From Pseudomonas alloputida (GTDB lineage: Bacteria > Pseudomonadota > Gammaproteobacteria > Pseudomonadales > Pseudomonadaceae), in assembly GCF_021283545.2 (NCBI RefSeq), contig NZ_CP128540.1:2453501-2517500 (forward strand): DNA of 64,000 nt, given 5' to 3'. Positions 5,122 through 27,741 of the stretch are shown piece by piece. The first letter of the stretch is position 1; every line of letters starts with the position of its first letter. The notes below the pieces were generated by a model. It did no database searches. It was not told the origin of the DNA and worked only from the letters and a program-made list of their open reading frames with translations. A program made the translations under genes and the position numbers.

Positions 5122-5478
5122 ATGAGAGATTACCCAGCCCTTCCAGGCTGCGCTGTCGCACAGCAAACAGGATGCGCATGACGTCAGATCTGCACTGACA
5201 TCGAGATCTAGAAAAGCATTCGCCGACTGATCCGGGTAGGTCAGCCGCCGAATACTTTGCTATGGTTCCCAATGCGCGGGAAAGAGGCCGTAGACCGCAC
5301 TGGTGTGCTGCTTTGCTCCCGAATGAGAGAGTGGTCCAAATGGCATCGGAGTTAATCCCTGTCGGCACAGCTTGCTGTGACCACGTATAGAAGAGTGAAC
5401 ACTTCGCCGCCATTGACCCCGCGCGCCTGTTTTTTCGCTAGAAAGAACAGTGGGTTATCTTTTGTTTGATAGAAGCGG
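5122..5478 (+). repeat. transposase-less IS110-type element, copy 1
   Basis: A 357-bp unit nearly identical to 27384-27741 (four substitutions and one indel by eye). It starts like the left end of the IS110-family element at 25691 (GAGATYACCCAGCCCTTCC) and ends like that element's right end (a TAGAAA, TGGGTT, TTTTGTTTGAT series). Between them is noncoding DNA homologous to the leader just upstream of the IS110 transposase (25857-26010), including CACTGGTGTG, a hairpin at 5366-5379 and GTGACCACGTAT. It therefore looks like left end joined to right end with no transposase. No convincing protein is encoded. The 3' junction (AAGCGGTCTGCCGCG) resembles a degenerate REP. Confidence 0.8.
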
Positions 5479-6287
5479 TCTGCCGCGACGGGCTGCTATC
5501 GACCCAGAGCGGCCATTTGCCGAGGCCTAAGAACGGTCATAGTCGCCATGCGCGTTCACCGAAGACGCTCTTTCGCGGGTAGGCAGCCAGAAGTCAAATG
5601 GTTACCCCAGCATGATTGAATGCGCCCAGCTAAGAGCTGAAGTCGCTGAAACTGGCTGAACCCTATTAGACAGGCCAGATGCTCAGGCCGCTTGCGGTGC
5701 GATCTGAGGCTAGATTCCCACGCTACTGCTGCATTGCCGGGATGTGCTGGATGGACGTACAGCCGGCGCGTACCAATTTTAGTACCAATAGTGGGATGCA
5801 GTTCAGCGAAAGGTCCCGGTATTGAGGTTCTCGCCCGTGTCCGGTGATCTGATATAAAACCTTTCTGGACAGGGTAAGCGCACACTTGATGTAGCTCAGA
5901 GCTTCTGAGGATTGAGAGGTGCGTATGACCATAGATAGGGATGGAATGGATTGTGATCAGCAGGTTAGCAGGCCGGCTGAAAACAATGGTCCGCCAGGCG
6001 GTCAATACTCGGAAGGTAAACGGGAGCAGCCCGAGGATCACGACGATTCCGCACATAATCGGCCCTTTCGAGGCAGGCAGAGATCAGGCCCGCCGGACCC
6101 ATCGCGGGCATCCAATGCCGAGCGTTATAGTTATCACAAGCGCCCACTGGAGTAACTTCCAGTACAGTGTGTAAAGGCTGGCGGAAGTACTGTTCAGCCC
6201 AGCTGATAGAAGCCCAGCCCCGCGCTGGGCTTTTTGCATTCATGCGACGCCCTGAGGGGTTTTGATAGCAGGGCTGGGCATCGACGT
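5479..6287. other. about 800 bp with no supportable gene
   Basis: Both strands have short open frames here but none has a recognisable domain, a convincing ribosome-binding site and plausible composition together. On the minus strand around 5960-6140 two overlapping frames encode hydrophobic stretches (for example IVVILGLLPFTFRVLTAW), possibly a frameshifted remnant of a small phage membrane protein. On the plus strand a hydrophilic 77-codon frame begins at 5925 after a weak GAGG and is followed by the terminator at 6211. Neither is called as a gene. The stretch is probably decayed DNA between the IS-like element and the phage-derived island. Confidence 0.5.
6211..6235 (+). terminator. rho-independent terminator, plus orientation
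   Basis: Eight-bp stem AGCCCAGC/GCTGGGCT with a five-base loop, followed by TTTT on the plus strand. It lies 50 bp beyond the stop of the minus-strand lyase gene but its T-run faces the other way, so it would stop rightward transcription before it reaches that gene. Confidence 0.65.
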
Positions 6288-6962
6288 TCAGCGATGGATG
6301 AGCGAGAGCTCGCTGATGATGCAGATCGAGCCGTCCTCGGCGGGGGTTGCGTCGGTGTAGTCGACCTGGTTGTAGACCCCGCCGTGGAACTCGAACAGGC
6401 GTGAAGCCCAGGTACTGTCGAGCTGCAAATCGCCCGACGAAGCGGATACCCCGTTGCATTCGGCCGTCACGGTTACCACGCCTTCAGACGTGGTGTGAAT
6501 GCTGATGTTGAACGTCGCACCCAGTGGCACCCCCTTCAGGACTGTGGAATTCACCGGGTCGGTCTGGTTGAAGGTGCGCCGAAACCCCAGGGTGATGTTG
6601 CCCTTGTTCCAGAACACCTTTACCGGCGGGCCGTCGTCCCCGCGTACGTGCATCTGGGCGATGACCACCTTCTGCGCCGAGTTGACCTTGGTCAGCGTCA
6701 TTGTCTGGCGATTCCAGTGATCCTGGGCGCTGGCCAGCGTCCAGTCTTGCGTTTCCGTCCATTCGCAGCGTGTCCTGTGGGTGCTTTTGCTCGAAGCCCC
6801 TTTGGTTGGGGCTGAGAACTGGATCGAGCCATCGCTGAGCACCGTCACGATGCTGGGAAAGCGGGCAATCGCTTCAGCACCGTTCAGCTCCAGAGCAACA
6901 GGGTTGGTTGAGGAGACGGCTACCGGCGTGGCGATGGTGAGGTGGCTGATATCTACGGCCAT
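6288..6962 (-). CDS. PL7-type (alginate lyase 2 family) polysaccharide-lyase-like protein
   Basis: 224 residues forming a single jelly-roll domain. SDGSIQFSAP near residue 43, AQMHVRGDD with Gln103 and His105 (the QIH motif of PL7), VKVFWNKG, TLKGVPLG-like and FEFHGGVYNQ with Tyr197 (usual YFKAGxYxQ) follow PL7 order. The usual RxELR strand is replaced by RTRCEW at 63-68, so an arginine/glutamate pair appears exchanged; activity is uncertain. No signal peptide is visible, unlike exported alginate lyases. ATG 6962 is preceded by AGGAG at good spacing. Palindromes matching those at the nearby CI-type repressor gene lie 65-106 bp upstream. In this phage-like setting it may be a depolymerase or tail-associated protein (inference). 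Confidence 0.7.
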   Translation of the reverse strand: MAVDISHLTIATPVAVSSTNPVALELNGAEAIARFPSIVTVLSDGSIQFSAPTKGASSKSTHRTRCEWTETQDWTLASAQDHWNRQTMTLTKVNSAQKVVIAQMHVRGDDGPPVKVFWNKGNITLGFRRTFNQTDPVNSTVLKGVPLGATFNISIHTTSEGVVTVTAECNGVSASSGDLQLDSTWASRLFEFHGGVYNQVDYTDATPAEDGSICIISELSLIHR

Positions 6963-7026
6963 GGGGAACTCCTGGCGAAAAGGTTTGAGTGGCATAGCCG
7001 CCGTACAAGCGACGGCTGAACGCAAA

Positions 7027-7068
7027 CTTAGCCTCAAGCTAAATCTAGGTCAATAGCTTATGGCTAAA
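7027..7068. promoter_or_regulatory. two palindromic operators of the TTTAGC-N5-GCTAAA type
   Basis: CTTAGC-N5-GCTAAA at 7027-7043 and AATAGC-N5-GCTAAA at 7052-7068, centres 25 bp apart, in the divergent region between the lyase gene and the DUF1654 gene. The same palindrome occurs twice, plus a half site, in front of the CI-type repressor gene at 8383, so this repressor is the obvious candidate ligand. An inverted pair AATTTCGC/GCGAAATT follows at 7071-7107. Confidence 0.65.
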
Positions 7069-7164
7069 ATAATTTCGCTTCACGGGAAATTACCTACAGG
7101 CGAAATTTTCCCCAGCGGGGGGCTTTACGCAGGATTTGGCGATGAGATAAGCTTTTGTTGAGTA

Positions 7165-7180
7165 CTGTACGAATATACAG
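7165..7180 (+). promoter_or_regulatory. LexA (SOS) box
   Basis: CTGTACGAATATACAG fits the LexA consensus CTGT-N8-ACAG with an AT-rich centre. It lies 17-32 bp upstream of the ATG of the DUF1654 gene at 7197, where it would block the promoter until DNA damage. Confidence 0.75.
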
Positions 7181-7196
7181 CTATCAGGATGAGAAT

Positions 7197-7520
7197 ATGG
7201 CAAGCCACATGAAGTCGGAACCCCATCAGCGCCAGGAAATGACCGGAATAGAGCGGCTTAGCCTGCGGGTATCGTCAATGATCAACCACCCGCTCGCACA
7301 GACGCAGCGCTGGGTAGTGGTGCACCGTCTGGATAGCGACGGTGAAGCGGAATGGGAGGAGGTGATGGGCCAGCTGCTGGAAATGCCCGAGTTGCAGCTG
7401 ACGTTCAATGATGACGCTAGCGTGACAGTGCGATGGGCGCGCAGTAGCGTGGAAGAGCGTGATGATTTTATCGTCGAGCGCGACTGCGAGGCTCAGGTCG
7501 AGGAGGCTGCACCGTTCTGA
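7197..7520 (+). CDS. DUF1654-family small protein, probable SOS gene
   Basis: 107 residues, acidic and soluble. ERLSLRVSSMINHPLAQTQR followed by WEEVMGQLLEMPELQLTF and VTVRW matches the pattern of DUF1654, a family restricted largely to Pseudomonas and its phages, with no established function. ATG 7197 has AGGA at 7187-7190. The LexA box just upstream predicts induction by DNA damage. It is the first gene to the right of the divergent region carrying the CI-type operators and converges on the repressor gene across a shared terminator. Function not known. Confidence 0.75.
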   Translation: MASHMKSEPHQRQEMTGIERLSLRVSSMINHPLAQTQRWVVVHRLDSDGEAEWEEVMGQLLEMPELQLTFNDDASVTVRWARSSVEERDDFIVERDCEAQVEEAAPF

Positions 7521-7530
7521 GCTTTAGCAA

Positions 7531-7554
7531 AAGCCCGCTGGTCAGGGCGGGCTT
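7531..7554. terminator. bidirectional terminator between DUF1654 and repressor genes
   Basis: AAGCCCGC and GCGGGCTT arms separated by eight bases lie between the convergent genes ending at 7520 and 7559. On the minus strand the hairpin is followed by TTTTGC, on the plus strand by a weaker CGGTTTA. Confidence 0.6.
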
Positions 7555-7558
7555 CGGT

Positions 7559-8383
7559 TTATACAAGGTGGGCATTCCACACCAGCAGGACCCTGGCCTG
7601 TATGTAGGTCTCTTCCCGACGAATCATGCGGTCTTTGTGCCGCGAGTTGTCGGAGATCATCTCGAAGTGGTCCTCGTCCGCGATCTGTAGCCGCTTGATG
7701 TAGATGTGGTCGCCCCAGGAAAAGAAGTAGATACCATCACCGACGAATTCGCGGATGCTGACGTCGACGATCAGCGGGTCGCGGTGCCTGATGGTCGGCT
7801 CCATCGACTGGCCCCAGCCAGTCACCATCTTCAGGTGATGGTGCTCGCTGAACGTCACGCCCAGTTCGCGCAGGTGGCTGGGGCTGACGCGAACGTCCTT
7901 GAACATCTCGGGGTAGTCGTGGGGGATCTGGCCGCCACCCATGGCTGCCCGCACGTCATAGTGGGCGATCCACACTTCGTCACCGACCAGGCCGGGGCGA
8001 AGCGGCTCGGCCTCCAGCAGCGTGGCATCTGCAGGCTCTTGCGCCGCTGCCAGCAGCCTTTGCCGGGTTTCTTCGGAGATACCTTTGCCGCTTCGGGCCA
8101 GCATCTGTTTGACCAGGTCGGCTGCAGAGAGCTTGTTGTCACCTGGCTCGACAGCCGCTTGTGCGTGTTCGCCTGGCGACAGCGCGTCGAACCAGCCCCG
8201 TGGCAAGCCTTCGATGCCCTCGATGCGGCGGGCCACGTCATCGCCCAGGTTTTTCACGGTCTTGTCGGAAAGGATCTGGCTAAGGTGTGCAGGCGCCATC
8301 CCCCAGCGCTCTGCGCAGGTGCCCTTTCTCTGGCTGCCGATCAGCTTCACCAGGTTGTGCTTGCGAATTTGGTAGATGTCCAT
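7559..8383 (-). CDS. phage CI-type repressor with S24 (LexA-like) peptidase domain
   Basis: 274 residues. The N-terminal helix-turn-helix spans about residues 20-45 (CAERWGMAPAHLSQILSDK). The C-terminal S24 domain has GQSMEPTI with Ser193 and IYIKRL with Lys230, the Ser-Lys dyad of LexA, CI and UmuD. No ordinary Ala-Gly cleavage site is evident; the region near 147-151 (AAMGGG) occupies the position, so self-cleavage is uncertain. The start is taken at 8383 where family members usually begin (MDIYQIRKHN); in-frame ATGs at 8395 and 8428 exist and none has a strong ribosome-binding site. Palindromes TTTAGC-N5-GCTAAA at 8403 and 8453 suggest autoregulation. Other prophage structural genes are absent. 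Confidence 0.85.
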   Translation of the reverse strand: MDIYQIRKHNLVKLIGSQRKGTCAERWGMAPAHLSQILSDKTVKNLGDDVARRIEGIEGLPRGWFDALSPGEHAQAAVEPGDNKLSAADLVKQMLARSGKGISEETRQRLLAAAQEPADATLLEAEPLRPGLVGDEVWIAHYDVRAAMGGGQIPHDYPEMFKDVRVSPSHLRELGVTFSEHHHLKMVTGWGQSMEPTIRHRDPLIVDVSIREFVGDGIYFFSWGDHIYIKRLQIADEDHFEMISDNSRHKDRMIRREETYIQARVLLVWNAHLV

Positions 8384-8402
8384 GGGGTGAAGCATGCCAG
8401 TG

Positions 8403-8469
8403 TTTAGCTTGCTGCTAAATGTGCGCATAGCTAAATCTACTCTTGTGGTGTGTTTAGCTGTAGGCTAAA
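8403..8469. promoter_or_regulatory. repressor operator cluster TTTAGC-N5-GCTAAA
   Basis: Exact palindromes at 8403-8419 and 8453-8469, centres 50 bp apart, with a half site GCTAAA at 8430-8435 between them. They fill the divergent region between the repressor gene (minus) and the small membrane-protein gene (plus, 8548), the geometry of a phage genetic switch. The same sequence recurs at 7027-7068. Confidence 0.75.
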
Positions 8470-8547
8470 TTAAGCGTGCGAACAAAGAAAGCTAGCGAGA
8501 CATTTTTCTCCAGGGCTGATCACATCATCATCTGTAATGAGGTTCAC

Positions 8548-8862
8548 ATGGATCCGACCGACCTCGGCCCGGGCACCGTCACTTGGCTGGGCGGTACGGG
8601 GACTGTACTGCTGGGTGCGTTTCTGTGGCTGCGTAAATGGTTGTCGAGGGATGCAGTCGACCGCGCGATGGACAACGCTGAAATTGCCGTCATCCGCCAC
8701 CTGACAGAGCTGCTGGACATTGAACGGGATGCCCGAAGGGAGGCGCAGGCAAAAGCTGATCTGCTCGCCAAGGAACGAAACGAACTGGTGATGACCGTAG
8801 GCCGGCTGCAAGGCAAGGTCATGGTGCTGACCAGTAAGCTGGGCAGTAGCGGCCAAACGTAG
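8548..8862 (+). CDS. small phage-type membrane protein with coiled coil (holin/spanin-like)
   Basis: 104 residues. One N-terminal hydrophobic segment (TVTWLGGTGTVLLGAFLWLR, about residues 9-28) is followed by a charged helix of roughly 60 residues rich in Ala, Glu, Arg and Leu that would form a coiled coil. GAGG at 8539-8542 supports ATG 8548 rather than an upstream in-frame start. Proteins of this shape occur beside repressor genes in Pseudomonas pyocin and prophage loci and are often called holin or spanin-like, but no specific signature is visible. It is divergent from the repressor gene and its promoter region contains the repressor-type palindromes. Function is inferred from shape and context only. 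Confidence 0.6.
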   Translation: MDPTDLGPGTVTWLGGTGTVLLGAFLWLRKWLSRDAVDRAMDNAEIAVIRHLTELLDIERDARREAQAKADLLAKERNELVMTVGRLQGKVMVLTSKLGSSGQT

Positions 8863-8888
8863 GGGGGCAGCCCGGGCAATCCGCGAAG

Positions 8889-8915
8889 AAAAAAAAGCCC
8901 GCCAAATTGGCGGGC
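8889..8915 (-). terminator. rho-independent terminator for the 60-residue gene
   Basis: Nine-bp perfect stem GCCCGCCAA/TTGGCGGGC with a one-base centre; on the minus strand it is followed by eight T residues. It lies 38 bp past the stop of the minus-strand gene at 8953. Confidence 0.8.
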
Positions 8916-8952
8916 GACAAGGGCGTAGGGAGCAACGCACAACAAATTCGGT

Positions 8953-9135
8953 TCAGGCAACCAAAGTGCCTGGTTGCAACTGTTCGGCCAGTGCCTGGGC
9001 TGAGGCGCGGGTCGGCATCGGGCCGCTCACGGCTTCGCCGTTGCGAACCAGGTACCAGCACGCCAGCAGGCCTTGCTCACGCAGTGAGGCGGGAACGGCG
9101 CTACCGACAACGGACATGATCTGGATAGTGGCCAT
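8953..9135 (-). CDS. conserved small protein, 60 residues
   Basis: A very strong ribosome-binding site (AAAGGAGG, six bases before ATG) and a clean terminator at 8889 make this a convincing small gene. The protein starts MATIQIMSVVGSAV and contains CWYLVRNGEAVSGPMPTRAS, a compact likely beta segment. No signal peptide, metal motif or known domain is recognised. It is a stand-alone transcription unit between the phage-like island and a small exported protein. Confidence 0.75.
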   Translation of the reverse strand: MATIQIMSVVGSAVPASLREQGLLACWYLVRNGEAVSGPMPTRASAQALAEQLQPGTLVA

Positions 9136-9229
9136 GGGGACCTCCTTTAAAACATGGCTCTACCATACGCAGCAGCCGGATCTGTTTGAAATCAACTTCC
9201 TCGATAGTGATCATTGGTCCTGTCAACCT

Positions 9230-9583
9230 TTACCAGCGCGGTGGCCCGTAATACACCGGCGGCGGCCCATAATAGGTGCGGTAGCCCGGTGGCGGCGGGG
9301 GAGGCGCGTAGTAGGGCTGGTAGTACAGCGGCTGTGGAGGCGGTTGTACGTACACCGGCGGCGGCGCGTAATAGACCGGCTGGCGCTCGACATACACCGT
9401 ACGGTCATGGCCGCCATAAACCGTCGCCCCCACCACGGCGCCGACCACTGCCGCACCTAGAAGTGGTCCCGGCCCATACCAACCACCATGCCCATGGCCG
9501 CCATAGCCGCCGTGCGCTGCTGCAGGCCCGCTGATGGCCAGGGCACCGACCAGCAGGACGATTCCGGGAATGAGACGGTTCAT
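9230..9583 (-). CDS. exported Gly/Pro/Tyr-rich small protein
   Basis: 117 residues. A signal peptide (basic start MNR, hydrophobic core, AAA-HGG cleavage region near residue 24) precedes a Gly/His-rich stretch, a short hydrophobic segment (LLGAAVVGAVVGATVYGG, possibly membrane or surface associated) and a tail of about 60 residues made of YYAPPP and YYGPPP-like repeats. GAGG lies seven bases before the ATG. Proline/tyrosine tails of this type are found in small envelope proteins of pseudomonads without known function. Monocistronic. Confidence 0.75.
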   Translation of the reverse strand: MNRLIPGIVLLVGALAISGPAAAHGGYGGHGHGGWYGPGPLLGAAVVGAVVGATVYGGHDRTVYVERQPVYYAPPPVYVQPPPQPLYYQPYYAPPPPPPGYRTYYGPPPVYYGPPRW

Positions 9584-9744
9584 AAAACAACCTCGCAGGA
9601 AAACCCCACGTCCGGGGCCCTGTTACTATGACTCCGGCCTCTGTCAGCTGAGCACAGGGGAACGGTAAAGGTTGTGTAAGGGACGACCAGTGGCTGACTC
9701 TGTTACGCTGAATAAACGTTTCAGTCATGACCAAGGAGCCTGTT

Positions 9745-10566
9745 ATGCCGACAACTCCCAGCCGGGACACCGTGCTTTGCATCTCTCTGGCCGGTCGCCC
9801 CGGCACCTTCGGCGTGCGCTTTCACAACCACCTGTACCAGCAGTTGGGCCTGGACTTCTACTACAAGGCCATGCGCACCGATGACCTGCCGGCGGCGGTG
9901 GCAGGGATCCGCGCCCTGGGTATTCGCGGCTGCGGGGTGTCGATGCCGTACAAGGAAGCCTGCATGGCCTTGGTCGACGAAATCGATCCCTCGGCGGCGG
10001 CCATCGAGTCGGTCAATACCCTTGTCAATTGCAATGGCCACCTCAAGGCGTACAACACCGATTACCTGGCCGTGCGCCAATTGCTGGCTCAGCATCAGGT
10101 CGATCCGGGCACGGCCTTTGCCCTGCGAGGCAGCGGTGGCATGGCCAAGGCCGTGGCCAGCGCCTTGCGCGATGCCGGGTTTGCCGAAGGCATCATCGTT
10201 GCACGCAACGAGCAGGCCGGGCGTCAGTTGGCGGATGTCTGTGGTTATCGCTGGGTGCCTGAGCCAGGCGACATTTGCCCGCCCATGCTGGTGAACGTGA
10301 CGCCGATCGGTATGGCAGGCGGGCTGGAGGCAGAAGAGCTGGCGTTTCCCGAGCACGCCATCGCGGCGGCGGAACGGGTGTTCGATGTGGTGGCGATGCC
10401 GGCGCAGACGCCGTTGATTCGCCGGGCTCAGGCGTTGGGCAAGCCGGTGATCACTGGGCTGGAGGTCATTGCGCTGCAGGCGCTGGAACAGTTCGTGTTG
10501 TACACCGGGGTAAGGCCGACGCGGGAGCAGGTGGATGCGGCGGTGGCATACGCGCGGGCTACCTAG
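9745..10566 (+). CDS. shikimate dehydrogenase family protein lacking the usual substrate serines
   Basis: 273 residues, usual AroE length. It has the catalytic lysine (SMPYKEAC, Lys70), the partner aspartate (AYNTDYLAV, Asp106), the dinucleotide-binding stretch ALRGSGGMAKAVASAL and the LVNVTPIGM segment. The N-terminal shikimate-binding SxS motif of AroE is replaced by GRPGTFGVRFHN, so the substrate is probably not shikimate in the ordinary sense; this fits divergent AroE-like groups such as Ael1 or RifI. ATG 9745 is preferred over 9727 because AAGGAG lies six bases before it. It stands alone, far from the visible aromatic-pathway genes. Confidence 0.75.
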   Translation: MPTTPSRDTVLCISLAGRPGTFGVRFHNHLYQQLGLDFYYKAMRTDDLPAAVAGIRALGIRGCGVSMPYKEACMALVDEIDPSAAAIESVNTLVNCNGHLKAYNTDYLAVRQLLAQHQVDPGTAFALRGSGGMAKAVASALRDAGFAEGIIVARNEQAGRQLADVCGYRWVPEPGDICPPMLVNVTPIGMAGGLEAEELAFPEHAIAAAERVFDVVAMPAQTPLIRRAQALGKPVITGLEVIALQALEQFVLYTGVRPTREQVDAAVAYARAT

Positions 10567-10576
10567 TTAATACTAC

Positions 10577-10608
10577 CCCCCCTTCGCAGCTCCGGTGGCG
10601 AAGGGGGG
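10577..10608. terminator. strong hairpin between convergent genes
   Basis: Perfect 11-bp arms CCCCCCTTCGC and GCGAAGGGGGG around a ten-base loop, located between the AroE-like gene (plus) and the small minus-strand gene. There is no T-run, so it may act as a transcription barrier or 3'-end stabiliser rather than a classical terminator. Confidence 0.5.
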
Positions 10609-10624
10609 TACAGGCGAAACCGGA

Positions 10625-10867
10625 TCAGAACACCTCGTGCCCGTTATCCAGCTGTTTGTCGACCAGTGCGCGGCCATGGGCCAGCGACACACGCTGCGCA
10701 TTTTCAAGGTCGGAGAAGAATTGCATGGGCATCGACATACGCTTGCTGGTGTGCCCGTCAGGTGCCGTGATCAGGCAGCCGGCGGCATAGGGCAGGGGTG
10801 AGTCGGGATGGGGCATCACGCTGGCAGTGATGGTGTGCTCGCGGTATTCACAGTGAAGAGATTGCAT
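10625..10867 (-). CDS. conserved hypothetical protein, 80 residues
   Basis: Begins MQSLHCEYREHTITASVMPH at 10867, preceded by GAGG and AAGG within ten bases. The composition is soluble, with a beta-rich first half and a helical end (FSDLENAQRVSLAHGRALVD). No known domain is recognised. It ends against the hairpin at 10577 shared with the AroE-like gene. The region upstream holds the glyoxalase terminator, so this gene has its own promoter. Confidence 0.65.
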   Translation of the reverse strand: MQSLHCEYREHTITASVMPHPDSPLPYAAGCLITAPDGHTSKRMSMPMQFFSDLENAQRVSLAHGRALVDKQLDNGHEVF

Positions 10868-10921
10868 CGTCCTTACCTCGCTGTGGTATGTGAAGCAGTT
10901 ACCTTCATATACCACAGCAAG

Positions 10922-10941
10922 AGGCCGGGAGTTCCCGGCCT
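10922..10941 (-). terminator. terminator downstream of gloA
   Basis: Perfect nine-bp inverted repeat AGGCCGGGA/TCCCGGCCT with a two-base spacer, 23 bp past the gloA stop and followed on the minus strand by CTTGCTGTGG, a weak T tract. Confidence 0.6.
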
Positions 10942-10964
10942 GACGAGCGCGCCGCGACGAACGC

Positions 10965-11492
10965 TTAGCCTTCGAGCTCGGTTGGCTGGATCACTTCGAC
11001 CCAATAACCGTCCGGGTCCTTGACGAAGGCCAGGTGGTTCATGCGGCCGTCCTGCAGGCGTTTCTGGAACGGCACTTCCAGTTCCTCGAAGCGCGCGCAA
11101 GCGGCGCGGACGTCGGGTACCGAAATGCAGATGTGGCCAAAGCCGCGTGGGTCGGTGTTGCCATTGTGGTAGGCAAAATCGGCATCGTTTTCGGTGCCAT
11201 GGTTGTGGGTCAGCTCCAGCACGCCAGGGATCGACTTCATCCACTGGTGGCGGGCGGTGTCATCAGCGGGGATCTGGGCAGGGTCGACCAGGGCCAGGAA
11301 GTACAGGCTGAAAGCGGCTTCAGGGAAGTCACGCTTGTCCACCAGGCGGAAGCCCAGCACGCGGGTGTAGAAGTCCAGCGACTTCTCGATGTCCTTGACC
11401 CGCAGCATGGTGTGGTTGAAGACGAACTGGGCGGTGGCGGCGTCAGGTTGCGCGGTGACGCCAGGCAGGGTTTGCAGATCGTGCAGGCTCAT
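10965..11492 (-). CDS. gloA: lactoylglutathione lyase (glyoxalase I)
   Basis: 175 residues, the length of the zinc-type proteobacterial and eukaryotic-like long glyoxalase I. Metal ligands are all in place: His27 (FNHTMLRV), Glu93 (VLELTHNHG), His120 (GFGHICI) and Glu166 (YWVEVIQP). The enzyme isomerises the methylglyoxal-glutathione hemithioacetal to S-lactoylglutathione in the cytoplasm. ATG 11492 has AGGAG six bases upstream. Flanked by its own terminator and by the terminator of turB, so transcribed singly. Confidence 0.95.
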   Translation of the reverse strand: MSLHDLQTLPGVTAQPDAATAQFVFNHTMLRVKDIEKSLDFYTRVLGFRLVDKRDFPEAAFSLYFLALVDPAQIPADDTARHQWMKSIPGVLELTHNHGTENDADFAYHNGNTDPRGFGHICISVPDVRAACARFEELEVPFQKRLQDGRMNHLAFVKDPDGYWVEVIQPTELEG

Positions 11493-11581
11493 GGGAACTC
11501 CTGAGACGGGGCCGGGCGCAGGGCGCCGGCAAAACAGACAGGCTGGCCATGATACGGCAGTGCGCCGATTGCGCAAATGAA

Positions 11582-11605
11582 AGCGCCCTGCAAAGGCAGG
11601 GCGCT
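11582..11605 (-). terminator. terminator downstream of turB
   Basis: Ten-bp perfect stem AGCGCCCTGC/GCAGGGCGCT with a four-base loop, followed on the minus strand by TTTCATTT. It separates turB from gloA. Confidence 0.8.
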
Positions 11606-11716
11606 GAAATTAGAGGCCCGCATGTGCGGGCGCGTGATGGGGTCGCTAGTCCTTTAGCTGTTTCGATACTGAGCCAGTCCTTGTGAAAAAAGTGTGAAGC
11701 CTATGTGGGCATTTCA

Positions 11717-12076: not shown

Positions 12077-12425
12077 TGTAATCACTCCTGTACGTCGGTC
12101 GTGGCAGGGCGTGACGAACATTGAAGACGCGTAAAAACGCCGGCCACGCAGTTGGGTTTCACTGTTCGCTGATATCGAGTGTAGTCATTCATGGCTACTG
12201 GGTAAACTGCTAACTTTTTGCAAGTAAGGCGGGAACTTTCCTAGTTTTGCGCACGGTATTTTGCGTTTTTTCTGCGGTTGCACGACAGGGGGCCTAGACC
12301 ATGGTCCAATGGCCCGCGCCAGAGCCTTTGCGCGATCATTTCAGATGATGGCCGACTCATGTTCGGACCTGCCGCAGTACCGTGGCCAACACGTGCCACA
12401 GGTTGTTAACTCGTCTTCATTCTGG
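12077..12425. other. intergenic region turB-oprD
   Basis: About 350 bp between divergent genes. It must hold the turB promoter and the porin promoter. An inverted repeat centred on GACCATGGTC (12297-12306), flanked by GGGCC and GGCCC, is visible; no confident promoter or operator was assigned and no small gene is supported. Confidence 0.4.
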
Positions 12426-13727: not shown

Positions 13728-13794
13728 GCAGCTGCTTTGCCAAATACCGGTAACCGCCCGACAATGGTCGCGGGTTCCCGCAAAGGGCAGGGCA

Positions 13795-14544: not shown

Positions 14545-14559
14545 GGTGGGTTGCCTGTG

Positions 14560-14590: not shown

Positions 14591-14613
14591 GAGCGAAACA
14601 GGCGCGGCCGTGC

Positions 14614-21289: not shown

Positions 21290-21333
21290 GCCTGGGGTCT
21301 GATGGCCAACTGTAAGTATTTCAAGGCGTTAAC

Positions 21334-21711
21334 ATGAGTGAAGATGCACAAGATGTGGTTCTGGTCGTCGAGGATGAACCGGCGATTCGCATGATTTTGC
21401 GCGATTACCTGGCGGGTGAGGGGTACCACGTCCTGGTGGCTGAGGATGGCGAGCAGGCGTTTGCCATCCTGGCCAGCAAACCGCACCTGGACCTGATGGT
21501 GACGGACTTCCGTTTGCCGGGGGGGATCTCGGGAGTGGATATTGCCGAGCCCGCGGTGAAGTTGCGGCCCGACCTGAAGGTGATTTTCATCAGCGGCTAC
21601 CCGGCGGAGATTCTCGAATCTGGCAGCCCGATCACCCGCAAGGCCCCTATCCTGGCCAAGCCGTTTGACCTGGATACCTTGCACGAGCAGATCCAGTCGC
21701 TGTTGCGCTGA
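21334..21711 (+). CDS. single-domain response regulator
   Basis: 125 residues, a lone receiver: VVEDEPAIRMIL, Asp58 in LMVTDFRLPGGISG, ISGYPAE and LAKPFDLDTLHEQIQ. The FRLPGG and SGYP motifs are those of receivers partnered with hybrid kinases of the FixL/PAS type. It begins 44 bp after the receiver-kinase gene and is probably its phosphorylation target or the end of the relay. A REP hairpin immediately follows. Confidence 0.9.
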   Translation: MSEDAQDVVLVVEDEPAIRMILRDYLAGEGYHVLVAEDGEQAFAILASKPHLDLMVTDFRLPGGISGVDIAEPAVKLRPDLKVIFISGYPAEILESGSPITRKAPILAKPFDLDTLHEQIQSLLR

Positions 21712-21717
21712 GGCATC

Positions 21718-21750
21718 CGGCCTCTTCGCGGGGCAAGCCCGCGCAGAGGC
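21718..21750. repeat. REP palindrome, probable transcript end
   Basis: GGCCTCT and AGAGGCC arms enclose the REP core TTCGCGGGGCAAGCCCGCG. It lies between convergent genes ending at 21711 and 21760. Confidence 0.85.
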
Positions 21751-21759
21751 CCTGGCAGG

Positions 21760-22341
21760 CTACCGCAGCGTCCGCTCAATGCCCCCGACCAGCAAGTTTT
21801 CCATCAGCTCCAAGCCCTGCTCTTCAGGCATTGCTTTGAGCAGCCCCGGCAGCTGGTTGAGAAGCGTCGCCAGTACATGCGCTGTGGCGTCCAACGCTTG
21901 CCCCGGCAGTTTCGCTTGCGGTGCGATCAGGCGCAGCAAACCCGCCTCATAGCGCTTGCGCAACGATGCCAGGTGCGCCTGTTGCGCCTCACTCAAACAA
22001 CACAAATCCCGTTCGGCCAGCCGGAACTGCAGCGGCCGCTCGGCATGCAGCTGCCAGTGCGCAGCAATCAGGCAGCTCAACGCCGATGCCCCACGGGCCA
22101 TGGCCCGGCGGGCCTGGTCCAGGGTGGCCTGCAGCTCTTCGTACAACTCTTCGATCAAGTCGTACAGCAGGTCCTGCTTGCTGGGAAAGTGATGGTACAG
22201 CGAGCCGGCGGTAAGCCCCACATGGGCCGCCAGCTCGCGCATGCTGACCTGGCCAAAGCCCTTTTCGGCAAACAATGCCATGGCCCGGTCACGTCGCTCC
22301 TCAAAGTTGGCACAGCGCATTGCGGCATTGACCGGGGGCAT
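21760..22341 (-). CDS. TetR-family regulator
   Basis: 193 residues. The N-terminal helix-turn-helix is ALFAEKGFGQVSMRELAAHV followed by GLTAGSLYHHFPSKQDLL, the textbook TetR pattern. The C-terminal ligand domain is helical (AAHWQLHAERPLQFRLAERD). The gene lies 12 bp after the 3-hydroxyacyl-CoA dehydrogenase gene with GAGGAG nine bases before ATG, so it is the last gene of the bktB-dehydrogenase operon. By analogy with FadR/PsrA-type TetR proteins a CoA thioester is a possible effector (inference). Confidence 0.88.
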   Translation of the reverse strand: MPPVNAAMRCANFEERRDRAMALFAEKGFGQVSMRELAAHVGLTAGSLYHHFPSKQDLLYDLIEELYEELQATLDQARRAMARGASALSCLIAAHWQLHAERPLQFRLAERDLCCLSEAQQAHLASLRKRYEAGLLRLIAPQAKLPGQALDATAHVLATLLNQLPGLLKAMPEEQGLELMENLLVGGIERTLR

Positions 22342-22353
22342 GGCGCTTGCTCC

Positions 22354-23202
22354 TCAGTAGGTGAAGAAACCGCGACCGCTCTTGCGCCCCAGCCAGCCGG
22401 CCGCGACCATTTCCTTGAGCAGTGGAGCAGGGCGGTATTTGCTGTCGTTGAAGCCTTCGTGGAAGGCCTCCATGATTGCCAGCAGGGTGTCCAGGCCGAT
22501 CAGGTCGGCCAAGGCCAGCGGGCCGATCGGCTGGTTGCAGCCCAGGCGCATGCCGGTGTCGATGTCCTCGGCACTGGCCAGGCCTTCCTGGCGCACGAAG
22601 ATCGCCTCGTTGATCATTGGCACCAGGATGCGGTTGACCACGAAGCCCGGGCGGTTGCCGGCGGTGATCGGGGTCTTGCCGACTTTTTCGGTCACCATCA
22701 GCGCCTGGGCGTAGGTGGTGTCGCTGGTCTGCAGGCCACGAATGATTTCTACCAGCGCCATCATCGGTACCGGGTTGAAGAAGTGCACACCAATGAAGCG
22801 CTCGGGGTGCTCGATGCTGGCGGCCAGTTGGGTCACCGACAGCGACGAAGTATTGGTGGCAATCAGGCAGTCGGCGGCGACGTTGGCTGCCACCTGCTGC
22901 AGGATGCGCTGCTTGAGCTGCAGGTTCTCGGTAGCCGCCTCGATCACCAGCTGTGCAGCGCTGAGCTGGGTGTAGTCGGTGCTGGTACGGATGCGGGCTT
23001 TGGCGGCTGCGGCCTTGTCGGCGTCGAGAGTGCCCTTGCTGACCTGGCGCTCGAGGTTCTTGCTCAAGGTGGCCACACCGCGCTCGAGCGCTGCGTCGGA
23101 AACATCCACCAGCAGCACCTGGTAGCCGGCAATGGCGCACACCTGGGCAATGCCGTTGCCCATGGTGCCCGCGCCGATCACGGCGATCTTTTCAATGCTC
23201 AT
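22354..23202 (-). CDS. 3-hydroxybutyryl-CoA dehydrogenase family protein
   Basis: 282 residues. The N-terminal Rossmann motif is IAVIGAGTMGNGIAQVCA; the substrate region contains the family pattern GVHFFNPVPMMALVEII, with the catalytic His in HFFNP, and the C-terminal helical domain has GFVVNRILVPMINEAIF and LGCNQPIGPLALADLIGLD. It oxidises short-chain (3S)-hydroxyacyl-CoA with NAD, as Hbd or PaaH do. It is 13 bp downstream of the thiolase gene, so the two give the last two steps of beta-oxidation of a short or substituted chain. Confidence 0.92.
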   Translation of the reverse strand: MSIEKIAVIGAGTMGNGIAQVCAIAGYQVLLVDVSDAALERGVATLSKNLERQVSKGTLDADKAAAAKARIRTSTDYTQLSAAQLVIEAATENLQLKQRILQQVAANVAADCLIATNTSSLSVTQLAASIEHPERFIGVHFFNPVPMMALVEIIRGLQTSDTTYAQALMVTEKVGKTPITAGNRPGFVVNRILVPMINEAIFVRQEGLASAEDIDTGMRLGCNQPIGPLALADLIGLDTLLAIMEAFHEGFNDSKYRPAPLLKEMVAAGWLGRKSGRGFFTY

Positions 23203-23215
23203 GTGTCAGCCTCCC

Positions 23216-24400
23216 TCAGACGCGCTCGAACACGACGGCGATGCCTTGGCCACCGCCGATACACATCGTGGCCAGGGCGTAGCGGCCCTGGATGCGCTGC
23301 AGCTCATGGATGGCCTTGGTGGCGATGATCGCACCGGTGGCACCCACCGGGTGGCCCAGGGAAATGCCCGAACCGTTGGGGTTGACCTTTTCCGGGTCGA
23401 AGCCCAGCTCGCGGGCAACGGCGCAGGCCTGGGCAGCGAAGGCTTCGTTGGACTCGATCACATCCAGGTCTTGCAGGTTCAGGCCGGTTTTTTCCAGCAC
23501 TTTGCGGGTGGCCGGGATCGGCCCAAGGCCCATCAGCTCAGGTTCCACCCCGGCATGGGCATAGCCCACCAGGCGTGCCAGTGGCTTCAGGCCCAGGCGG
23601 CGCACCGCGTCACCGGTGGCCAACACCAGGCCGGCGGCGCCATCGTTGATACCGCTGGCGTTGCCGGCAGTGACGGTGCCGTCTTTCTTGAACACCGGCT
23701 TCATGCCGGCCAGTTGTTCGGCGGTCACATCAGCGCGCACATGCTCGTCGACACTGAACTGCACGCTGCCCTTGCGGGTTTTCAGCTCCAGCGCAACGAT
23801 CTGGCTGGCGAAGCGGCCCTCGGCAATCGCACGAGCGGCGCGGCGCTGGCTGGTCAGTGCCAGTTCGTCCTGCATTTCGCGGGTAATGCCGTACTTGGCC
23901 GAAACGTTCTCGGCAGTGATGCCCATGTGGAAGTGCTGGAACGGGTCCTGCAGCACGCCGACGGTATAGTCGATGCCTTGCAGGTCACCCATGCGTGCAC
24001 CCCAGCGCGCCTGTGGCAGCAGGTAAGGGCCACGGCTCATGGACTCGGCGCCGGCCGCGACGGCCACATCGGTGTCGCCCAGCAACAGGCCCTGGGCCGC
24101 AGAGACAATAGCCTGCAGGCCAGACCCGCACAGGCGGTTGACGTTGAATGCCGGCGTTTCCTTGGGGATGCCAGCGTTCATTGCCGCTACCCGTGCCAGG
24201 TAGGCGTCACGCGGTTCGGTGGGGATTACCGTGCCCATCACCATGTGGCCGACTTGCTCGGCGGCCAGGCCCGAACGCTCGATGGCGGCGCGGGTCACGG
24301 CGCTGGCCAGGTCGGCCAGCGGCAGGTCCTTGAGGGAACCGCCAAAGCCACCAATGGCTGAACGGACGGCACTGACGACGTAGATTTCTGCGCTGCTCAT
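23216..24400 (-). CDS. bktB: beta-ketothiolase / acetyl-CoA acyltransferase
   Basis: 394 residues with all thiolase landmarks: Cys91 in NRLCGSGLQA (acyl carrier), GAESMSRGPYLLPQARWGAR, NASGINDGAAGLVLAT, NEAFAAQ, NPNGSGISLGHPVGATGA and the second catalytic cysteine in MCIGGGQGIA. It cleaves or condenses 3-ketoacyl-CoA; the sequence is closest to the BktB group acting on C4-C5 and longer chains. ATG 24400 is preceded by GGAG. First gene of the bktB-dehydrogenase-tetR operon, divergent from the AraC regulator gene. Confidence 0.9.
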   Translation of the reverse strand: MSSAEIYVVSAVRSAIGGFGGSLKDLPLADLASAVTRAAIERSGLAAEQVGHMVMGTVIPTEPRDAYLARVAAMNAGIPKETPAFNVNRLCGSGLQAIVSAAQGLLLGDTDVAVAAGAESMSRGPYLLPQARWGARMGDLQGIDYTVGVLQDPFQHFHMGITAENVSAKYGITREMQDELALTSQRRAARAIAEGRFASQIVALELKTRKGSVQFSVDEHVRADVTAEQLAGMKPVFKKDGTVTAGNASGINDGAAGLVLATGDAVRRLGLKPLARLVGYAHAGVEPELMGLGPIPATRKVLEKTGLNLQDLDVIESNEAFAAQACAVARELGFDPEKVNPNGSGISLGHPVGATGAIIATKAIHELQRIQGRYALATMCIGGGQGIAVVFERV

Positions 24401-24568
24401 AAGGGCTCCGATTGCGAAGGCGTGGCGGGACCGGGCCAGGCTCTGCGAGAATGGTTGGCGGCCCCGAAGTGGGATCGAGTCTAGGCAAAGGCTCTGTTGC
24501 AGCCTATGCCGAATCTGTTCAAACAACCTGGCACTTTTTGCCACTCAGCATAGACAGCGAAAACCGCC

Positions 24569-25657
24569 ATGCGCGAAAGCGATTCAGTCGCCGTGTACTT
24601 CCTCAACGCCATGCTCCACGCCCTGCGCGACACGCCCGCCGAGCGTGATGCCCAGCTGCTTGCGGTGGGCATCGCCCCGCAGCTGCTCGATCAGCCTCTG
24701 GCGCGGGTGCCGGCCAAGGCGTTCGCCCAGCTGTGGCTGGCGTTGATCCAGCGCCTGGACGATGAGTTCTTTGGCCTCGACAGCCATGGCATGCCGCTGG
24801 GCAGTTTTGCCCTGATCTGCCGGGGGTTGATCCTCGAGCCGAACCTGGAAAAGGCCTTGCGCCAGTGCATGGGGGGCTTCGGCCTGTTCCTGCGTGACCT
24901 GCGTGGCAGCCTGACGGTACGTGGCGGGCGGGCGGTGATCAGCGTGCAGTCGAACATTGCCGACCCCTTGACCCGGGTCTATGCCGAGGAAACCTACCTG
25001 GTGCTGATGATCGGCATGCTGTGCTGGCTGGCCGGGCGGCGGATTGCCATCGACCGCACGGAGCTCGCGGTGTCGCGCCCGGCCCAGGAGGACGACTTGC
25101 TGCTGTGGGGGCCGGACCTGCGGCTGGGCAGCGGACGCACCGAGGTGGAGTTCGACAGCGCCTACCTGCGCCTGCCGGTGGTGCAGGATCGGGCAGCCCT
25201 GAAGACCTTTCTGCGCAGTGCACCTCAAGGGCTGGTGATCCGCTTTCGCAATCAGAACGGGCTGGTGGCTGAGGTGTATCGGCACCTGCGGGCATTGCGC
25301 TATGGACAGTGGCCGACATTGGCCGCACTGGCGCAGCAACAGGGGATCAGTGCCAGTACCTTTCGCCGGCAGTTGGAGCGGGAGGGGCGTTCGTACCAGC
25401 AGATCAAGGATGAAGTGCGCCGGGCCATGGCCTTCGAGCGGCTGCGCGAAGGCGCGTTGAGCATTGCCGAAATTGCCGAGCAGGCGGGGTTTCAGGAACC
25501 GAGTGCCTTCCACCGGGCGTTCAAGAAGTGGACCGGGCAGAGCCCAGGGAGCTACCGGGCGCGGCTGGTCGGCCTGCGTTCTACCTGTAGGAGCGGGCAT
25601 GCCCGCGAAGAAACCACCGCGGTGGATGGCACCGGCTCTGCCGGTGTTCGCGGGTAA
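24569..25657 (+). CDS. AraC-family regulator whose C-terminus runs into a REPIN
   Basis: 362 residues. The N-terminal half is the arabinose-binding-like domain of the OruR/ArgR-type AraC group (LNAMLHALRDTPAERDAQLL); the C-terminal domain has two helix-turn-helices (LAQQQGISASTFRRQLEREG and IAEIAEQAGFQEPSAFHRAF) ending KKWTGQSPGSYRARL, where such proteins normally finish. About 30 further residues (from STCRSGHAREET) are read from the REPIN at 25586-25670 and the TAA stop at 25655 lies inside its second arm. Divergent from bktB with 168 bp between, so it likely regulates that operon. Confidence 0.88.
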   Translation: MRESDSVAVYFLNAMLHALRDTPAERDAQLLAVGIAPQLLDQPLARVPAKAFAQLWLALIQRLDDEFFGLDSHGMPLGSFALICRGLILEPNLEKALRQCMGGFGLFLRDLRGSLTVRGGRAVISVQSNIADPLTRVYAEETYLVLMIGMLCWLAGRRIAIDRTELAVSRPAQEDDLLLWGPDLRLGSGRTEVEFDSAYLRLPVVQDRAALKTFLRSAPQGLVIRFRNQNGLVAEVYRHLRALRYGQWPTLAALAQQQGISASTFRRQLEREGRSYQQIKDEVRRAMAFERLREGALSIAEIAEQAGFQEPSAFHRAFKKWTGQSPGSYRARLVGLRSTCRSGHAREETTAVDGTGSAGVRG

Positions 25658-25670
25658 ACCCGCTCCTACA
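25586..25670. repeat. REPIN (two inverted REPs)
   Basis: TGTAGGAGCGGGCATGCCCG at the left and CGGGTAAACCCGCTCCTACA at the right form an inverted REP pair around a 35-40 bp centre. The left arm and most of the right arm are translated as the tail of the AraC regulator. Confidence 0.85.
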
Positions 25671-25784
25671 GGGCACGCCCAGAATTGTAGGAGATCACCC
25701 AGCCCTTCCGGGCTGCGCTGTCGCGCAGCAAACATGAGGTGTACGGCTTCAGTTCCGCAGCGACGCTGACATTTTGAAAAAGAA

Positions 25785-25818
25785 AAGGCGGTTGGCCCGG
25801 TAGGGCCAGCCGCCTTTT
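25785..25818 (+). terminator. terminator hairpin inside the IS left end
   Basis: AAGGCGG-T-TGGCCC, loop GGTA, GGGCCA-G-CCGCCTT then TTTT. It would stop readthrough from the AraC gene into the element, leaving the next 200 bp with its own transcription. The short elements lack it. Confidence 0.7.
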
Positions 25819-25856
25819 GCTTTGTTAGGGTTCGTGTGCGCGGGACAGAGATCGTA

Positions 25857-26015
25857 GCCAGCACTGGTGTGTGTCTGCACACCCGCGTAGGAGAGTGATC
25901 CGCACGGTATCGGCGTGAAGTCCCTGTAGGCATCAGCTGATTCAGCTGTGACCACGTATGAGAGAGTGAACCCTTTCGCCACCGTGTGCCCCGCGCGCCC
26001 TTTATCCTGCGAGGA
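25857..26015 (+). ncRNA. candidate IS110 bridge-RNA region
   Basis: IS110 elements encode, in the noncoding end next to the transposase gene, a structured bridge RNA that pairs with donor and target DNA. Here the segment between the hairpin at 25785 and the transposase start has blocks shared with both transposase-less elements (CACTGGTGTG, GAGAGTG, GTATCGGCGT, CCCTGT, GTGACCACGTAT, CCCCGCGCGCC). A stem at 25934-25948 (CAGCTG-ATT-CAGCTG) is replaced in the short elements by CACAGC-TT-GCTGTG at the same place, a compensated change. The precise RNA ends are not visible; the assignment is by position and conservation. Confidence 0.45.
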
Positions 26016-26021
26016 TTCATC

Positions 26022-27350
26022 ATGGCGCGCAAGCCTTCCAAGCAACGCTTTACCGTCGTCCATCCCGATTGCGCGGCGATCGATGTCGGTGGTCGAGAGC
26101 ATTTCGTGGCGGTCGATCCCCGGCACGAAAATCCCGTCCAGTCGTTCACGTCCTTTACTGACGACCTGCTCAAGATGGCTAACTGGCTTGAAAGCCTGGG
26201 GATCAAGGTCGTTGCCATGGAATCCACGGGGGTTTATTGGATTCCAATTTACGAGATTCTCAGCGAGCGCGGTTTTGACGTTTATCTCGTCAATGCCAGA
26301 GCAACTCGGCAAATCACGGGCCGTAAATCAGATGTGCTGGATTGCCAGTGGATCTGGCAGCTGATGACTCATGGACTGCTCAGAGGCGCATTCCGCCCCG
26401 ATGATCTGACCTGCTGCGTCCGGTCATTGGTCAGGCAGCGTGCTTCCAAAGTGAAAGACCAGGCGCAGACGCTGAACCGGATGCAAAAGGCCATGAGCCA
26501 AATGAACATCCAGCTGGCCAATGTCATCAGTGATATTTCCGGTGTAACTGGCATGAAGATTTTGCGGGCCATCTGCGCAGGTGAACGGGACCCAGTGCAA
26601 CTGGCTGAACTAACCGACCGCCGCATCAAGGCAGGCAAGGAGGCTGTCGCTCGGAGTCTTCATGGCAATTGGCGGCGCGAGCATTTGCATGCGCTAACTC
26701 AGGAATTGGCTGCCTATGACTTCCTGGAGCAGCAAATTGCAGATTGTGACGACGCCATAAAAGCCGCGTTAGAGCAGTTGCCGGTGCTGCAAAACAAGCC
26801 AGAGCCATCCAAGAAGCCTTTACGGAGCCCACACCGAAACGGCGCCCAACAGACTGTATTGCATCAGACTTTGTGGAAAGTTCTTGGCGTGGACCTAACC
26901 GCAATTCCAACCATTGGGGTGGACACTGCATTAGTGCTGGCAGGGGAGATCGGTACAGATCTATCACGCTTCCCGTCCTCACAGCACTTCTGCTCTTGGT
27001 TGGGACTGGCTCCCCCTACCCGAATTTCCGGCGGTCATCGACTGGCAGGTGGTGGGCCCAAAATAGTCAATCGAGCAGCGCAAGCACTCAAGCAGGCTGC
27101 ATCCAATGCCCGTAACGACAAGGGTTTCATTGGCGCATCGCACCGAGCCAGACTGACTCGAATGGATACCAGCTGCGCCATCAAGGCCACTGCGCATCAG
27201 TTGGCACGTCTGGTGTACAACCTGTTAACCAAGAAGCAGGCTTATGTTGAACAAGGTCTTGAGGAGTTCGAAACCAGAAGCCAAGACCGGCAGGTCCGGG
27301 CTTTGCTTCGCAAAGCCCGGAAACTGGGGTATCAACTGGTGGCCGCTTGA
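26022..27350 (+). CDS. IS110-family DEDD transposase
   Basis: 442 residues. The N-terminal DEDD/RuvC-like domain has Asp21 (AIDVGGREHFVAVD), Glu67 (VVAMESTGVYWIP), Asp104 and Asp107 (TGRKSDVLDCQWI), all in place. A coiled-coil region in the middle leads to the C-terminal Tnp domain with IPTIGVDTALVLAGEIG, FCSWLGLAPPTRISGG with the likely catalytic serine, and NRAAQALKQAASNAR. The frame is intact, so the element is probably active. GAGG is seven to eight bases before ATG 26022. Confidence 0.93.
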   Translation: MARKPSKQRFTVVHPDCAAIDVGGREHFVAVDPRHENPVQSFTSFTDDLLKMANWLESLGIKVVAMESTGVYWIPIYEILSERGFDVYLVNARATRQITGRKSDVLDCQWIWQLMTHGLLRGAFRPDDLTCCVRSLVRQRASKVKDQAQTLNRMQKAMSQMNIQLANVISDISGVTGMKILRAICAGERDPVQLAELTDRRIKAGKEAVARSLHGNWRREHLHALTQELAAYDFLEQQIADCDDAIKAALEQLPVLQNKPEPSKKPLRSPHRNGAQQTVLHQTLWKVLGVDLTAIPTIGVDTALVLAGEIGTDLSRFPSSQHFCSWLGLAPPTRISGGHRLAGGGPKIVNRAAQALKQAASNARNDKGFIGASHRARLTRMDTSCAIKATAHQLARLVYNLLTKKQAYVEQGLEEFETRSQDRQVRALLRKARKLGYQLVAA

Positions 27351-27383
27351 GTGCTTAGAAAACAATGGGTTGCATTTTGTTTG

Positions 27384-27741
27384 ATGAGAGATCACCCAGC
27401 CCTTCCGGGCTGCGCTGTCGCACAGCAAACAGGATGCGCATGACGTCAGATCTGCACTGACATCGAGATCTAGAAAAGCATTCGCCGACTGATCCGGGTA
27501 GGTCAGCCGCCGAATACTTTGCTATGGTTCCCAATGCGCGGGAAAGAGGCCGTAGACCGCACTGGTGTGCTGCTTTGCTCCCGAATGAGAGAGTGGCCCA
27601 AATGGCATCGGCGTTAATCCCTGTCGGCACAGCTTGCTGTGACCACGTATAGAAGAGTGAACACTTCGCCGCCATTGACCCCGCGCGCCTGTTTTTTTCG
27701 CTAGAAAGAACAGTGGGTTATCTTTTGTTTGATAGAAGCGG
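27384..27741 (+). repeat. transposase-less IS110-type element, copy 2, abutting the IS
   Basis: 358 bp, almost identical to 5122-5478 and in the same orientation. It starts where the right end of the IS110 element stops, so complete and short elements are in tandem, and finishes with its own right end (TAGAAAGAACAGTGGGTTAT, TTTTGTTTGATAGA) directly on the REP arm AGCGGGCTTGCCCGCG. The interior is more like copy 1 than like the adjacent IS, so it derives from a sister IS110 and not from a deletion of its neighbour. No gene inside. Confidence 0.8.

Follow-up and report, generated by a model that had tools for sequence, protein, structure and literature searches.

A stretch of 64,000 nucleotides from Pseudomonas alloputida (assembly GCF_021283545.2, contig NZ_CP128540.1, forward-strand positions 2,453,501 to 2,517,500; below, "the window", whose numbering we use) carries two short units derived from insertion sequences of the IS110 family and a complete IS110-type, ISPpu9-like element. 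All features described here lie on the forward strand. Counted from core to core, unit 1 is 347 bp (5127-5473, one AG core included) and unit 2 is 348 bp (27389-27736) in length. A first-pass annotation, made from the letters of the window, had placed them at 5122-5478 and 27384-27741, which takes in a few target bases on each side, and had described them as nearly identical, transposase-less and closer to each other than to the complete element. This description holds, as the units differ by just 4 mismatches and 1 gap in 348 columns (98.6% identity), whereas unit 1 and the complete element are 72% identical across 309 columns. In both units, an IS110-like right end follows the left end and the leader RNA region without a transposase gene in between, and both have the AG core at the two ends that is a trait of IS110-type elements. 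The DEDD recombinase is absent from the units and present in the complete element. Lacking a DEDD recombinase of their own, the units are IS110 derivatives and, strictly, not members of the family.

The complete element, hereafter the helper, spans 1697 bp with one core (25692-27388). Its transposase gene, tnp (26022-27350), encodes 442 amino acids and matches DEDD_Tnp_IS110 (E 1.3e-21) and Transposase_20 (E 1.6e-12); in all seven helpers given to tblastn, out of ten in the home genome, the protein matches across residues 1-442 at 99.8-100%. To the left lies the left half of a repetitive extragenic palindrome (REP) target with the core, TGTAGG[AG] (25686-25693). The right end reads GTTTGATGAG[AG], and its last bases with the core, GATGAG[AG] (27383-27390), are at the same time the target of unit 2, which directly abuts the helper. 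The core and the right half of the REP target, [AG]CGGGCT (27737-27744), follow after unit 2. The sole helper of the home genome without a unit, L031, reads REP-CTGTAGG[AG]ATCACC ... GTTTGATGAG[AG]CGGCTTTAGCCGCG-REP. It ends in REP, and therefore the helper target is TGTAGG[AG]CGG and the helper right end GATGAG[AG]. We write the REP-type target word as TGTAGGAGCGGG and the ten-letter word of the unit type as ATGAGAGCGG. The leader of tnp contains a bridge-RNA-like region (25834-25992, row "full" of the RNA alignment). Just before this region, a strong terminator-like hairpin is found at 25783-25818, which by eye is absent from the relatives L067-L071.

Unit 1 is an orphan, with the left site CCACATGAG[AG], of which ATGAG[AG] (5122-5128) is the left target with the core. 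It begins with AG-ATTACCC and, like unit 2, terminates with GTTTGATAGA[AG], its right core being at 5474-5475. Judged by eye, the two ends of the unit, ATCACCC and GTTTGATAGA, do not form inverted repeats, which fits an IS110-type element; a miniature inverted-repeat transposable element (MITE) in the strict sense was dismissed on this ground. The structured, bridge-RNA-like region covers 5270-5427 in unit 1 (row solo1, with a covariance-model match at 2458770-2458920 of the genome) and 27532-27689 in unit 2 (row solo2, by architecture the counterpart of the Ssr9 RNA discussed below). Unit 1 and 1.5 kb of its left flank are common to genome G081 at 99%, while the right flanks of the two copies (L001 and L035) diverge at the right core, from window position 5474 onward; a rearrangement therefore broke at the unit end.

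Guides were named after Durrant et al. (2024, PMC11208160) and assigned by sequence identity. Each consists of the bases in front of an AG-AGTG motif, which some relatives spell AGACTG or AGAATG and which stands in the first loop and again in the second; the first-loop guide fits the left target and the second-loop guide the right end. In the helper, the left target guide GCGTAGG[AG] (25885-25893) fits the REP target TGTAGG[AG], and the left donor guide TATGAG[AG] (25957-25964) fits the right end GATGAG[AG], in each case over five bases and the core. The units differ from the helper in both loops. Their left target guide is GAATGAG[AG] (5321-5329 in unit 1, 27583-27591 in unit 2), which in unit 2 fits the helper right end ATGAG[AG], and their left donor guide is TATAGA[AG] (5386-5393 and 27648-27655), which fits the right end GATAGA[AG] of the respective unit. 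As the helper right end ATGAG[AG] equals the target guide of the units, the unit target word is the helper donor word. The last three bases of the right ends differ between helper and unit (GAG versus AGA), and because of this difference an occupied helper offers no same word at its outer right border. The idea of a separate family with a bridge RNA of its own, put forward in the first-pass annotation, is thus borne out by guides that match the targets and the right end of the units and not those of the helper; that the target guide spells the helper right end lay beyond the view of that annotation.

Many short non-autonomous elements come from internal deletion, and the units could likewise be ordinary internally deleted IS110 copies that the helper bridge RNA moves via shared ends. 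The left end is indeed shared and the leader is 72% identical. However, the helper RNA would direct such copies to TGTAGG[AG] and the unit sites are ATGAG[AG], its donor guide ATGAG misfits the unit right end ATAGA, and the guides are unlike in both loops, so we regard this origin as highly improbable. MITEs and other non-autonomous elements resemble the units in being short, multi-copy and transposase-less and in presumably borrowing the enzyme of a relative. Unlike MITEs, which possess terminal inverted repeats and lack targeting information of their own, the units bear a guide RNA whose target word is altered.

The agreement between guides and sites extends to relatives. In a table of 15 elements assembled by hand, the left target guide equals the left target and the left donor guide equals the right end over five bases in all 15. 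The table holds eight different guide pairs, and shuffled pairings agreed as well in 0 of 100,000 trials, a figure that is no strict probability, as the elements are partly related and not independent. Near-duplicates, the distant or truncated L078 and L080-L092, the decayed L102, L103 and L105, the truncated L104 and L109 and the units of genome G039 were excluded; the left ends of L080 and L082 are unassigned. Some of the tabulated left ends were located with the guide as key, and the same ends are seen beside a conserved box that was found guide-free. Examples of the guide pairs are GTGGG/ATAAG in P. libanensis, GAGGG/ATGAG in P. zanjanensis and GTAGG/ATGAG in a Rhodanobacter bin. In the decayed L102 (G368), the guide GCATGAA[AG] meets the left flank CCATGAG[CG], with one base and the core misfitting, and the left flank of the decayed L103 (G193), CTCATGAG[GG], reads ATGAG with the core GG, its guide being altered by one base.

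The structure of the RNA was assessed in an alignment of 18 regions (16 distinct). The 33 pairs of the model are paired in 98.1% of the cells, a share that falls to 34-50% when the partner is shifted by 1 to 3 columns. Both partners vary in 14 of the 33 pairs, where shuffles give 6.1 and none of 500 attains this number, in line with the structured RNA that the first-pass annotation had expected. The units thus contain in their left end a two-loop RNA, supported by covariation, which is a trait of bridge RNAs. Rfam gave no match anywhere in the window at gathering thresholds.

A DNA search of the 6.44-Mb home chromosome gave 30 rows, made up of 17 units, the leaders of ten complete elements, one complete element with a deletion and a shortened unit in two pieces, a recurrence beyond chance. 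The covariance model found 27 RNAs in the home genome, ten of the helper and 17 of the unit type. The 17 units end in the same words on both sides, apart from a left word off by one base in L017 (ATGGG). Thirteen directly follow a helper-type right end and four stand elsewhere (L001, which is unit 1, and L002, L013 and L017). Conversely, nine of the ten helpers, and the deleted one as well, read GTTTGATGAG[AG]ATCACC, that is, the right end and then at once a unit. The deleted helper (L029, G000:C1:1521314) has lost an internal part and still has the unit on its right end. The shortened unit (L034, G000:C1:6159500-6163000, unit at 6161285-6161411) is cut to 120 bp core to core and has a left core CG instead of AG. 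Two loci, L032 (G000:C1:2627500-2631700) and L033 (G000:C1:827500-832200), are arrays of a helper, a unit, short 3' pieces of tnp and more units. These tnp pieces carry the helper right end and start at an internal AG ([AG]AAGCC or [AG]CCAGACTG), a pattern as if AG-AG recombination had cut within tnp.

Away from helpers, the left word of the units is ATGAG in seven of eight rows and ATGGG in one, and GTAGG in none. Two of these rows are one insertion in two genomes, one is the 120-bp remnant with core CG, and L103 stands outside the count. The motif by which the rows were printed demanded ATG(A/G)G at the left, so that the count alone is no test; the left words of the home-genome orphans were seen without this filter, and that of a plasmid copy comes from an empty-site comparison.

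This plasmid copy lies on the P. aeruginosa plasmid NZ_CP124659.1 and is 100% identical to unit 2 across query bases 1-355. The helper was not found on this record, where a query of helper plus unit hit a single place covering 32% of the query. In a search with the plasmid site, at least seven records (H22-H28), from the best 25 of 318 records matching any part of the flanks or the unit, have both flanks at 100% over 1013 bases instead of 1361. Comparison with two empty-site records shows that exactly 348 bp were inserted, with a 2-bp AG overlap, at AATGAG[AG]: the empty site reads GTCCAATGAG[AG]GCCGG and the occupied one GTCCAATGAG[AG]ATCACC ... GATAGA[AG]GCCGG. For the orphan L002, natural empty sites with flanks at 100% occur in two of 368 genomes (best two candidates per genome), and in genome G332 its flanks stand side by side at 70-83%. 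For L013, the right flanks are common in the genus, and the left flank is absent among the matches listed. A phage collection searched for the unit gave no match. The natural empty sites show clean insertion of the unit, and the units have the traits of a satellite, being present in 17 copies without a transposase, with clean junctions and natural empty sites. We conclude that they form a real and recently mobile family of transposase-less IS110 derivatives with a bridge-type RNA of their own, whose target word is the helper right end. The plasmid unit (L145, NZ_CP124659.1, 520736-521385) interrupts a gene annotated as hypothetical, whose neighbours are a Tn3-family transposase and a ribbon-helix-helix/PIN pair and which has a relative with the annotation of an antitoxin-type protein.

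A similar arrangement has been described in P. putida KT2440; what we cite from this and the other papers below comes from excerpts of their texts. ISPpu9 inserts in REPs there (7 of 7 copies; PMC1525189), and Ssr9, an RNA of about 180 nt on Northern blots, is encoded downstream of its tnp (Gomez-Garcia et al. 2021, PMC8450116). Shared with the window are a REP-inserted tnp that has a long 5' leader, the AG core, and a downstream RNA-coding segment with like ends, orphan copies and an occupancy that varies between strains. In KT2440, ssr9 has three orphan copies and boxes A and B around the AG, and a role as a sponge was proposed. In the available sections, the RNA is treated as a regulator and self-movement of the orphans is left undecided: the authors considered tnp-aided movement of the ssr9 segment a possibility and called it unclear (PMC8450116). 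The likeness of our unit to ssr9 is one of architecture. That orphan copies of a like RNA had been published was likewise outside the first-pass annotation, and what is added here to those sections is the guide reading, the empty sites and a second lineage (described below).

Accordingly, the unit could be a regulatory small RNA module of ISPpu9, namely Ssr9 acting as a sponge for the antisense RNA Asr9, with the orphans as leftovers of elements that have otherwise disappeared. Ssr9 anneals to Asr9 in vitro and cuts the Asr9 stimulation of tnp translation by about 30%, extra Ssr9 in KT2440 lowered transposition slightly (PMC8450116), and a helper right end directly adjoins 13 of our 17 units. 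On the other hand, leftovers would keep the helper left flank GTAGG, or GATGAG together with helper sequence, and GTAGG is seen in none of the eight off-helper rows. In addition, the plasmid copy is a clean 348-bp insertion when compared with natural empty sites, on a record where the helper was not found, and a regulatory role does not account for guides that fit the target and the end of the unit itself. As a full account of the units, we therefore consider this explanation improbable, although a regulatory role and a transposon role are not mutually exclusive.

Insertion at the helper right end could also be apparent: units may move, yet most helper-unit pairs may be copies of a composite that transposes jointly. 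Nine of ten helpers bear the unit at the same junction, and the word ATGAGAGCGG is free seven times in the home chromosome, one of these being the free helper right end, so that helper ends are disproportionately occupied. Gomez-Garcia et al. also suggested movement as tnp with or without ssr9 (PMC8450116). A composite would, however, combine the helper left target with the unit right end, which neither RNA matches fully, and it would not account for a target guide that equals, in two lineages, the helper right end. Three closely related strains have seven helpers apiece, of which 5, 5 and 6 are occupied, with tandems and differing orphans (PMC8450116); such varying occupancy speaks for a unit that moves on its own. 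Overall, a predominance of joint transposition appears unlikely but deserves to be kept in view, and helper occupancy would rather stem from targeted insertion. We also considered that the unit might lock the helper in place, and dropped this idea as incoming ISPpu9 moved about equally with or without ssr9 (PMC8450116).

The second lineage is that of Pseudomonas sp. CFII64, in which the helper right end GATAGG[AG] is followed by a directly abutting unit without tnp. This unit has the target guide GAATAGG[AG], which spells the right end of the neighbouring helper, and the donor guide TATGGG[AG], and it ends in GATGGG[AG]CGAGG. The flank there is REP-like by eye, and the unit interior contains no open reading frame of at least 80 amino acids. 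The model search of this genome gave one helper RNA and one unit RNA. Across the genus, such RNAs were detected in 13 of 398 genomes, the home genome included, with strict filters and scoring limited to the best seven candidates of each genome. When the model search of the genus was repeated around CFII64, on what appear to be the same genomes, it gave the same 12 other hits and added CFII64 alone. In a guide-masked RNA tree, ten of 13 inner branches are open, and the unit types of G000/G103 (G000 being the home genome) and of CFII64 group together in 4% of bootstrap trees; to judge from these sequences, they probably arose separately.

A third kind of tnp-less unit, with non-coding cargo, is present in G039, where six RNA matches (L115, L098, L108, L112, L117 and L119) lie in units of about 0.8 kb. 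The guide GAGAGGG[AG] is found in five of the six, and the left end GAGGG[AG] in the three with a left end available; the right end GATAGG[AG]CTTGC of two units fits the donor guide TATAGG[AG]. Here the guide spells a REP-type site and not a helper, and a relative of the helper transposase was not found in the G039 genome.

Bridge RNAs are known to work in trans, both for IS621 (PMC11208160) and for ISEc11 and ISEc21 (PMC11187229). With IS621 and its relatives, our system shares the two-loop RNA, the left target and donor guides, a dinucleotide core, REP targets and, presumably, an RNA acting in trans (Durrant et al. 2024, PMC11208160). IS621-type elements encode a recombinase (PMC11208160) and the units have none, the core is CT in IS621 and AG in the units, and the fold of the units is different in having a small hairpin 5' of both left guides. 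The seekRNA elements ISEc11 and ISEc21 similarly require a non-coding RNA region in cis or in trans, and the ends of ISEc11 move cargo when the enzyme and the RNA are given in trans; that mobilisation was a laboratory construct, whereas the units are a natural element that would depend on it (PMC11187229). A transposase-less IS110 element with its own guide RNA was not found among the titles and abstract openings listed in a literature search, which most subscription papers and all preprints lie outside.

Taken together, we interpret the units as a non-autonomous IS110 satellite whose own bridge RNA guides it to the helper and whose enzyme comes in trans, a reading to which we assign a probability of about 0.85. 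Such a unit would carry just its two ends and its own bridge RNA, with the recombinase supplied in trans, most likely by the co-resident ISPpu9-like helper. The unit RNA would be bound by the helper recombinase; its donor loop would read the unit's own right end ATAGA[AG], and in its target loop the helper right end ATGAG[AG] would have replaced the REP word GTAGG[AG]. Units would then land mainly at the right border of a helper and occasionally at ATGAG[AG] sites that occur by chance, among them the plasmid site. The first-pass annotation had proposed both a guide of the unit's own and movement by a transposase in trans: the former and mobility as such are supported by the guides, the covariation and the empty sites, and helper-driven movement in trans is the likeliest mechanism that we can infer.

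Several observations weigh against this interpretation. The empty site of L002, TCTATGAGAAGCGG, exceeds a perfect target by one base, and the insertion there amounts to a net 347 bp. Right target and donor guides did not emerge from a systematic scan, in which every stretch fell short of 70% of the 13 or 14 elements. One of five covariation measures, further pair types, gave 21 against 19.1 in shuffles (79 of 500), and the unit RNA folded alone is no better than shuffles (z -0.48). Removal of ssr9 from incoming ISPpu9 changed transposition little, and Ssr9 overproduction in KT2440 made it slightly lower (P = 0.04; PMC8450116). Moreover, the tnp and ssr9 segments of KT2440 are reported to be identical in the 14 bases before the AG (PMC8450116). 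With the end boxes of KT2440 identical, a separate unit right end is a feature seen in the home genome and CFII64; as a guess, ssr9 in KT2440 may share the helper right end, and tandem copies of ssr9, as reported in two related strains, would agree with this. Finally, helper ends are occupied in nine of ten cases and other sites of the same ten letters rarely. As such sites elsewhere are rarely occupied, the short guide alone does not explain the excess at helper ends, which may reflect either a longer recognition or joint movement of helper-unit pairs.

In 2024, IS110 elements were shown to pick both donor and target by one two-loop RNA. In the units, the RNA and the ends appear separated from the enzyme and the target loop re-spelled, which would amount to a natural reprogramming of a bridge RNA in a mobile unit of less than 350 bp. 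We are somewhat inclined to believe that the satellite, whose right end differs from that of the helper, rewrote its target loop in order to seek the end of the element whose recombinase it borrows. The CFII64 unit may have done likewise with another spelling, in which case this natural bridge-RNA reprogramming may be a recurrent parasitic strategy. The finding makes it testable whether a small RNA alone sets the DNA destination when another element supplies the enzyme, and it raises the question of whether Ssr9 of KT2440, a workhorse strain, guides a transposon in addition to acting as a regulator.

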